Origin: Halobacteria archaeon HArc-gm2 | GTDB taxonomy: Archaea; Halobacteriota; Halobacteria; Halobacteriales; Haloarculaceae | DNA length: 64,000 bases | Assembly: GCA_025517465.1 (NCBI GenBank) | Contig: JAOPKE010000004.1 | Location: forward strand, 76,165 to 140,164 | Reading direction: 5' to 3' | Shown: in pieces, positions 37,268-43,892 of the stretch | Numbering within the stretch: the stretch's first letter is position 1 | Layout of the letters: the number at the start of each line of letters is the position of its first letter | Notes under the pieces: model-generated | Told to the model about the DNA's origin: nothing | What the model saw: the letters and a program-made list of their open reading frames with translations, nothing else | The model's database searches: none | Translations under genes and position numbers: made by a program

Positions 37268-37518
37268 AGAAAGCCAAGGGCCGGATTTGAACCGGAGGAA
37301 GACGGTCGCCCTCGCTTCACTCGGGCGCTGCGACTTCCAGGGTTCAAACCGGCGAAGCATTCGCTGCTCGCGGTATTGCTCGCAGCAGAAAGCCAAGGGC
37401 CGGATTTGAACCGGAGCCGCTTCGCTCTCGCTCGCGGCAGAGTTCAAATCCACCCATTTGGTGCTCGCCGCTCACGAATTGTTCGCGGCAAAGAAGCCAA
37501 GGGCCGGATTTGAACCGG
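37268..37518. repeat. tandem partial copies of the tRNA-Cys 3' end
   Basis: A 23-base block GCCAAGGGCCGGATTTGAACC-GG, identical to the 3' acceptor strand and T-arm of tRNA-Cys (37496-37518), recurs at 37273-37295 and 37392-37414. Copies are 119 and 104 bases apart. The spacers hold T-arm-like sequence in the opposite orientation (GGTTCAAACCGG near 37341-37352; AGTTCAAATCC near 37441-37451) and Ala/Arg-type GC runs. Only the last copy is a complete tRNA. Confidence 0.8.
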
Positions 37519-37570
37519 CGATGGGCGGCTCTGCAGGCCGCTGCGTTCGGCCGGACTCTGCCACCTTGGC
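37495..37570 (-). tRNA. tRNA-Cys (anticodon GCA)
   Basis: On the minus strand GCCAAGG opens and CCTTGGC closes a perfect seven-base acceptor stem. The anticodon arm is GCGGC-ctGCAga-GCCGC, giving anticodon GCA, and the T-arm is GCCGG-TTCAAAT-CCGGC. The base after the acceptor (37495) gives U73, the cysteine discriminator. It is the terminal tRNA of the rRNA operon, as in other Halobacteria. Here it is separated from 5S by a protein gene and followed by partial copies of its own 3' end. Confidence 0.93.
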
Positions 37571-38000: not shown

Positions 38001-38123
38001 GGCAGGCGGCGAATCGAGTTTCCCAGAGGTTCGCACACTCCAGTACTCACCGAAACGCAGGCGGGCTTATCTTCCGTGTTCGGGATGGGTACGGGAGTCG
38101 CCCCGCCGCTATGGCCGCCTTAA
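38001..38123 (-). rRNA. 5S ribosomal RNA
   Basis: The minus strand reads TTAAGGCGGCCATAGCGG at the 5' end and ...CGATTCGCCGCCTGCC at the 3' end, which pair to form helix I. The middle shows the conserved CCCGTACCCATCCCGAACACGG and GTGAGTACTGGAGTG segments of archaeal 5S. End positions are accurate to a few bases. It follows 23S by about 130 bases. Confidence 0.92.
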
Positions 38124-38253
38124 CGCCGATTCGTGGAATCGAACCACGCTCCAGACAGGCTGGAGACCAGTATCGGTCGGTCGATGTGACCGTGTCGTAC
38201 GTGCGATCCAGATTGCGCCTGGACTCGTTCAAATGAGTCACAATGCGGTATAA

Positions 38254-41168
<2,915 letters not shown>

Positions 41169-41669
41169 GTTGCACGGTGGTCGGGTGAACGATCACCGTG
41201 ACTAACAATGAGCTGCAACTGTAACCGCTTCGGGTCCTCTCCGGCCGAAGCCGGAGAGATCCATCAGTGCGTTACAGTTGCAGCGACGTTCGGATACACG
41301 TTCCACGATGAAACGGATCCAGTTGACGTCTGGATTGCACGTACACACGGTCGTCATCGTAACACTCCCGTGGTGAACGGGAGCGACGGTCTTACCCTTC
41401 CCAACCACGCTTTCGCGGGATGGTGCATCGGTTTCGCGTGACGGCACGGTGCCGTCCGCGGTAGTGATCGACCCGGAATCGAACCGGGGCCGCCTCCGGA
41501 AGGAGGTGCTCTTCCACTGAGCTATCGATCGCCCCTCGAAGAGGGGTGAACTGCAAGTAAGCCCTGACAGTTCGGTGCCCGGCCGGTACGGCCGTGGTGT
41601 CACCATCGCCTGCCACAATGGCTGGCGAAGTAAAGGTGGGCCAGGCGCGTCGGCCTGGTCCCGGTCATT
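41169..41669 (-). other. 16S-23S internal transcribed spacer with a structured hairpin
   Basis: This 500-base spacer holds the degenerate tRNA (41464-41531), the 3' arm of the 16S processing stem (41559-41577) and a compact folded element. In the folded element GCTGCAACTGTAAC (41212-41225) pairs with GTTACAGTTGCAGC (41271-41284). Inside it CTCTCCGGC/GCCGGAGAG (41237-41258) closes a loop that reads c(UUCG)g on the transcribed minus strand. No protein gene is present. Confidence 0.75.
41464..41531 (-). tRNA. degenerate spacer tRNA (tRNA-Ala position), anticodon loop truncated
   Basis: The minus strand folds as a tRNA: acceptor CGATCGA/TCGATCA, D-arm GCTC-AGTGGAA-GAGC, T-arm CCCGG-TTCGATT-CCGGG. 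The anticodon stem CCTCC/GGAGG encloses only four bases, TTCC, instead of seven, so no anticodon can be assigned. Total length is 68 bases. Position 1-72 is a C-A mismatch and the alanine G3-U70 pair is absent. The spacer of halobacterial rRNA operons normally carries tRNA-Ala(UGC), so this looks like a decayed copy. A GC-rich hairpin (41532-41547) directly precedes it. Reading the anticodon as CCG would need a one-base variable loop and a mismatch. Confidence 0.65.
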
Positions 41670-43143
<1,474 letters not shown>

Positions 43144-43892
43144 GGGTTTCCTGACTCAAGGTCAGGATCTGGCGGAGACACGCTATCATACGTTGTCTCG
43201 TCGTCAGTCGGCGACACCGCGTCGGTCGTACCGAACCAGGTATCACCGAACTGTCAGGGCTTGCATCATATCTCATCTGTACGGCGGACCGCAGGGGTGA
43301 GATACTCATAGCTTTCGAATCCCATCATCGACGAGAAGCACTCGTCTAAGGTGGACGGCGTAGCAGGCAGATTCCCGCTGGGCGCCATCCTTCGAACGGA
43401 TATAGTTGTAGAGGACTACCCCACATAAAGCCACCGATTGTTGTCCGTGTGTGATAGTCGAAATCACACGACGGAACCGGCCTGACGGATCAGGCATTGA
43501 GTGGCTTTATGTGGAAGCCCGCTACTCCGTTCGAGCTCGATTGCCGCCCTGACGGACGGCGTCACCGAACTGTCAGGGCTCACATCAGATCCCGCCTGTA
43601 CGGCGGACCGCAGGGCTGGGATCCTCATCTTTCGCGGGAGCAGGTGCTTGCACAGAGGCGAGCACGCTGAACTCTCGCTTCGCGGCAGGAAGTCACGTCG
43701 ACTTCTCCGCACCGTGCCGGGGCGTCCCGGCGCGGCGTTCACATAACATTCCGATGGGAGGGTAACGGATAAACCCTCCGTCTCGAACCTGCCGTGAGAC
43801 GGCGACACAGGCCACGTGACGGGTGATACGCAATCACAAGTTGTGTCGTACTGACTGGACTCGTCGGCGGATCCGTTTCGAGCTTCCCCGGA
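43144..43892 (-). promoter_or_regulatory. rRNA operon leader and promoter region with duplicated processing arm
   Basis: No protein gene is seen. A segment of about 75 bases occurs twice (43243-43317 and 43562-43634); each copy starts with CACCGAACTGTCAGGGCT, which is complementary to 41559-41577 beyond 16S and so forms the 16S processing stem. Promoter-like elements on the minus strand are GGGTTTATCC (near 43770-43780) and GGCTTTATGTGG (43421-43432). CCACATAAAGCCAC (43421-43434) and GTGGCTTTATGTGG (43501-43514) are exact inverted copies. FEN-1 lies immediately upstream in the same direction. Confidence 0.7.

Follow-up and report, generated by a model that had tools for sequence, protein, structure and literature searches.

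The 16S-23S spacer of the rRNA operon in the window (the whole stretch of 64,000 nt of DNA analysed here) contains an anticodon-less tRNA-like element, which is interpreted, with moderate confidence, as a processing element derived from the spacer tRNA-Ala and carried by a divergent, second-type rRNA operon of the Haloarculaceae. The observations behind this interpretation are the tRNA fold without an anticodon, the covariation of its acceptor and T arm, the replacement of tRNA-Ala and the absence of a bulge-helix-bulge (BHB) motif from the 16S processing stem. The element is real, conserved and more widespread than could be seen in the preliminary description, which was made from the window alone. 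It is tied to an open question of archaeal rRNA processing and, judged by its sequence, would belong with the tRNA-like processing elements, as a predicted site of cleavage.

Rfam models show that the minus strand of the window carries a complete rRNA operon of the haloarchaeal kind. The features of the operon and of its spacer are the following:

37495-37570, minus strand: tRNA-Cys(GCA), the distal gene of the operon (Rfam and ARAGORN)
38001-38122, minus strand: 5S rRNA (RF00001)
38124-38180, minus strand: stretch with a T arm GTGG-TTCGATT-CCAC just upstream of the 5S rRNA, the site of the Haloferax t-element
38252-41173, minus strand: 23S rRNA, full length (RF02540, 2784.6 bits), with its own processing stem and BHB (BHB match in the flanks)
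41464-41531, minus strand: anticodon-less tRNA-like element of the window type, class B, in the 16S-23S spacer (Rfam tRNA match, ARAGORN, fold and covariation)
41532-41546, minus strand: hairpin CCCCTC-TTC-GAGGGG adjoining the 5' side of the element, with a similar hairpin in most class B spacers
41560-41577, minus strand: 3' strand of the 16S processing stem (CACCGAACTGTCAGGGCT), without the 3-nt TAT bulge of the tRNA-Ala operons
41670-43143, minus strand: 16S rRNA, full length (RF01959, 1582.7 bits)
43244-43261, minus strand: 5' strand of the 16S processing stem in the leader (AGCCCTGACAGTTCGGTG), the exact 18-nt complement of 41560-41577

The fold of a tRNA is complete in the element, as the preliminary description had stated. 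The Rfam tRNA model (RF00005) matches it with 50.4 bits (E 8e-8; gathering score 29), ARAGORN calls a tRNA with an unassignable anticodon ('tRNA-???'), and the minimum free energy fold of the element alone consists of four helices, namely a 6-bp acceptor, the D stem, the CCTCC-TTCC-GGAGG hairpin and the T arm. The parts of the element are:

41525-41530, minus strand: acceptor 5' strand GATCGA, paired with 41471-41466, with a two-sided change from C-G to T-A relative to relatives
41508-41522, minus strand: D arm GCTC AGTGGAA GAGC, reduced or gone in two related genera
41493-41506, minus strand: anticodon-arm remnant CCTCC-TTCC-GGAGG, of which the stem covaries and the loop length varies among relatives
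41472-41488, minus strand: T arm CCCGG-TTCGATT-CCGGG, with the T stem 100% paired and TTCGANT invariant among class B
41466-41471, minus strand: acceptor 3' strand TCGATC, followed at 41465 by an A in the discriminator position

In 5' to 3' order, a C precedes the acceptor strand, TA separates this strand from the D arm, a single A lies between the D and anticodon arms, CGGC lies between the latter and the T arm, and the A after the acceptor closes the element. The D, anticodon and T arms form the cloverleaf of a functional tRNA; the 7-nt anticodon loop and the 7-bp acceptor of such a tRNA are absent. The anticodon stem closes on only the four nucleotides TTCC, and the first acceptor position is a C1-A72 mismatch, both as read earlier from the letters. 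Position 1:72 is unpaired in 19 of the 20 class B elements and '72' is almost always A, so that an acceptor of 6 bp followed by an A is the more accurate description. The alanine identity was also correctly held to be gone: A:U takes the place of the G3:U70 pair in the window, as it does in most relatives, and a G-U occupies the 3:70 place in the class B elements of G004a and G144. The spacer tRNA-Ala(UGC) stands in the same position, and its D arm and first anticodon-arm half are nearly identical to those in the window (AGCTCAGYGG...AGAGCACCTCCTT). On the other hand, the element differs from it in the missing anticodon loop, the 6-bp acceptor, the A:U pair and the T loop, which reads TTCGATT instead of TTCAAAT.

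Searching relatives with the window spacer recovered further copies, both within the genus and in other Haloarculaceae genera. Stretches of 3 kb around the 16S genes were taken from Haloarculaceae genomes, and 106 operons with a full 16S were counted: 62 spacers hold tRNA-Ala(UGC), 20 hold class B and 24 hold a second, compact tRNA-like fold with a four-way junction at the same spacer position (class C). No spacer among these 106 family operons is without one of the three. Class B occurs in six genera (g1, g4, g14, g15, g19 and g21), and its exact pattern, which misses diverged members, gave five matches across 84,980 species, all of them halophilic archaea, the named ones being Halorientalis, Salinibaculum and Halapricum. 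Class C occurs in three genera (g1, g6 and g17), comprising Halomicrobium (Halomicrobium sp. LC1Hm, G002, and H. mukohataei, G003, are among the family genomes), Haloarcula-type genomes and one further genus, and is present in plasmid operons of Haloarcula sinaiiensis. The class C pattern matched 15 of 392 genomes of the taxonomic class, in three genera, all Haloarculaceae, and in nearly every member only 2-3 nt separate the fold from the 16S stem. The Rfam tRNA model detects neither class C nor the most shrunken class B members. The link of class C to tRNA-Ala, which is indicated by the position, a T-arm-like 7-nt loop and a shared GGGTCC acceptor strand, is less certain than that of class B because of this failure of detection. 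All three spacer types coexist in the genome G004, which has a single tRNA-Ala operon, two operons of class B and one of class C. Two tRNA-Ala operons are present in some genomes (G010 and G093), and extra operons therefore need not lose the tRNA.

Across the 19 distinct class B sequences, 93.9% of the cells are paired and nine pairs have changed on both sides, which was matched by none of 500 shuffles, and slid controls lowered the paired fraction to 25-50%. The acceptor and T stem are 100% paired and the anticodon stem 82%. The corresponding values for class C are 96.0% paired and seven pairs changed on both sides (0/500 shuffles). Conservation in class B reaches 0.89 in the acceptor 5' strand and 0.91 in the T arm and acceptor 3' strand, falls to 0.66 in the D arm and 0.49 in the anticodon arm, and is 0.37-0.62 in most of the neighbouring spacer, where only the two rRNA processing stems are comparable (0.85-0.86). 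The D arm is reduced in g14 and G125, with the acceptor and T arm retained, and the loops have about 3-5 nt or none, with sequences unrelated between relatives. An A directly follows the acceptor in 19 of the 20 elements. The acceptor/T-arm half of a tRNA is where RNase P and tRNase Z bind, and the part that varies freely is the one that a ribosome would read. Judged from the alignment, this pattern is what retention of the element for its acceptor/T-arm half would leave. The earlier suggestion that selection keeps the locus as a structural processing element after the loss of decoding is favoured by this comparison over six genera, in which the fully paired helices carry compensatory changes and the anticodon arm varies, the cleavage itself being predicted.

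The same data bear on the alternative that the element is a passive relic, that is, a copy that decayed while tRNA-Ala was supplied by the other operon and whose hairpins merely keep the spacer folded, uncut. We regard this as unlikely. The D and anticodon arms do shrink in several lineages, as a decay gradient, and the spacer is otherwise variable; however, the unconstrained decay of a tRNA pseudogene is not what the covariation and the part-wise conservation indicate, given that compensatory changes keep the acceptor and T stem paired over six genera, that this half is conserved above most of the surrounding spacer and that none of the 44 spacers without tRNA-Ala is empty. Slightly less likely still is a scaffold for folding or assembly, in which the fold and its hairpin would stack on the 16S stem and guide the folding of the pre-rRNA or bind a protein, uncut by the tRNA-processing enzymes. 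The constant distance of class C from the 16S stem (2-3 nt) and the hairpin adjoining class B fit such a role, whereas the conservation sits on the tRNA features of the processing enzymes, including TTCGANT and the A after the acceptor.

That the locus still yields a functional tRNA, serving some other role or bearing an unusual anticodon, is highly improbable: the Rfam score is good and ARAGORN reads two G004 copies as 'Glu(ttc)', but the loops are short or missing and unrelated between relatives, the acceptor has 6 bp and normal tRNA-Glu genes are present in the genome. The tRNA-Glu call in G004 was rejected as an artefact of the tool. An error of assembly or sequencing has next to no probability, even though the draft already breaks at the second 16S gene, since the same kind of element occurs in 19 other operons, several of them in genomes of one or two contigs. 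A sequencing error is ruled out by the relatives, notably by G006, whose near-identical spacer has its own 4-nt loop.

The preliminary description had reasoned that, if this were the only rRNA operon, tRNA-Ala(UGC) must be elsewhere. The premise does not apply, as the draft is missing a second operon of the tRNA-Ala type. The search for other rRNA operons was answered in part: only one full 16S is assembled, but the sequence that flanks the tRNA-Ala operon upstream in the sister genome G006 has its counterpart (93% identical) at the start of contig C18 of the same assembly, which continues through a tRNA-Ala-type leader and breaks off in the first bases of a second 16S (bases 1-60 of the contig). 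An rRNA operon is therefore missing from the assembly. Similarly, an intact tRNA-Ala(UGC) is absent from the assembly, where the tRNA-Ala genes found are only (GGC) and (CGC), but is present in the corresponding operon of the sister genome. Loss of the gene from the organism was rejected on the match of the C18 flank; in the window strain the gene probably lies in the assembly gap, as judged from this flank. Eight relatives were tested, and in these the tRNA-Ala operon holds the one gene that best matches tRNA-Ala(UGC), the other matches being 77-84% identical. This single gene explains why one operon per genome retains tRNA-Ala(UGC).

In tRNA-Ala operons, the leader (GTTC-GGTG-ACA) pairs with the spacer (CACC-TAT-GAAC), which gives the 16S stem a canonical BHB. 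The class B spacer is without TAT, and the 18-nt 16S helix is therefore continuous, with no BHB; the 16S stem of class C operons differs from that of class B. At the canonical place the BHB is found in 60 of 61 tRNA-Ala operons and in none of 45 class B or C operons, counts that are non-independent, with related operons entering many times and a 16S tree that needs only 8 class changes. BHB-like matches in six class B or C operons were discarded, being off the canonical place and no commoner than in shuffled sequence (7/60). The sole tRNA-Ala operon without a BHB, L179 (G111:C55), comes from a draft of 120 contigs; its leader and 16S are of class B and its spacer is that of a tRNA-Ala operon, and it is therefore a chimeric assembly or a recombinant.

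The window operon, with a 16S stem lacking a BHB and a 23S stem carrying one, has the arrangement of Haloarcula rrnB, from which tRNA-Ala is reportedly absent. The divergent operons of Haloarcula are the textbook example of ribosomal RNAs that diverge within a single cell. In the relatives, the 16S identity between the tRNA-Ala operon and the class B or C operon of one genome is 90.5-95.5% (92.5% in the sister genome G006). The BHB-less divergent Haloarcula operons, known from Dennis et al. 1998 as reported in PMC7038931, are likewise of a second type, with a divergent 16S and a 16S stem without BHB. Two of the three Haloarcula operons have no 16S BHB, and 16S processing there is left open in PMC7038931. 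In the 16S tree, the class B genes of g1, g4, g15, g19 and g21 and the class C gene of g17 share one part (SH-aLRT 99), and most 16S genes of tRNA-Ala operons lie outside it. This separation points to a second operon lineage of old standing or to transfer from genus to genus. The 16S genes of g14 class B, of most g1 class C and of all g6 class C operons group with the tRNA-Ala 16S of their own genus, as gene conversion would give.

In the proposed mechanism, the acceptor/T-arm half would be recognised in the precursor by RNase P and/or tRNase Z, and the spacer would be cut at the element, which would part the pre-16S from the pre-23S. The same parting is carried out in the ordinary operon by tRNA excision together with BHB cleavage. 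Decoding would be left to the other operon with its one intact gene for tRNA-Ala(UGC), and the spacer copy would consequently be free to lose this function. Since the half relevant to cleavage is strongly conserved, the element is probably a cutting signal in operons without a 16S BHB, and the window copy is a probable substrate of RNase P/tRNase Z. Several findings weigh against the processing interpretation: most class B elements have a hairpin immediately 5' of them, which is unusual for an RNase P leader; the window element is far from both mature ends, 138 nt from the 16S and 290 nt from the 23S; the acceptor is short by one pair; Rfam misses class C and the most shrunken class B members; and some genomes have two tRNA-Ala operons. 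More tentatively, the second-type operons may have swapped the release of 16S by splicing endonuclease at the BHB for tRNA-processing enzymes acting on a dedicated anticodon-less module, of which at least two forms, B and C, would have arisen. Such a swap, if true, would explain the release of 16S from archaeal precursors that have no BHB, and the conserved tRNA-like element in every BHB-less operon examined offers a concrete candidate for this release.

Plant mitochondrial t-elements are tRNA-like shapes that act as cutting signals without decoding, and they resemble the window element in principle only, belonging to different genomes and transcripts. A t-element is located upstream of the 5S rRNA in Haloferax volcanii, according to the accounts of Holzle et al. 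2008, 2012 given in PMC4326828 and PMC7714728, and haloarchaeal t-elements are cut by tRNase Z at the 5S rRNA and, in constructs, by RNase P together with tRNase Z (PMC4326828). Like the Haloferax t-element, the window element is a tRNA-like structure inside a haloarchaeal rRNA precursor, with a T arm and an acceptor-like stem. However, the Haloferax element abuts the 5S rRNA, whose mature 5' end is made by tRNase Z, whereas the window element abuts no mature RNA end, occupies the tRNA-Ala slot in mid-spacer, retains D and anticodon stems and is a predicted target of cutting. No tRNA-like elements in haloarchaeal 16S-23S spacers, nor their distribution in the family, were found in the literature searched. 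The elements would represent a tRNA gene stripped to the half seen by the processing enzymes, at several stages in different genera, and annotation tools either miss them or call odd tRNAs.

In the class B spacer of G006 (L109, L003, L035), about 78 additional bp with a long hairpin (GAGTGACGTAAGCC...GGCTTACGTCACTC) are inserted after the 16S stem and before the element. The segment of the 16S leader that holds the 5' strand of the processing stem is doubled in the window (43243-43309 and 43562-43628, 319 bp apart and 87% identical) and in the class B operons of G006 and G020; the second copy was not seen in the others scored. Between the two leader copies of the window, at 43421-43514, a perfect 14-bp inverted repeat (CCACATAAAGCCAC...GTGGCTTTATGTGG) surrounds 66 nt and is perhaps the remnant of a small mobile element or a hairpin.
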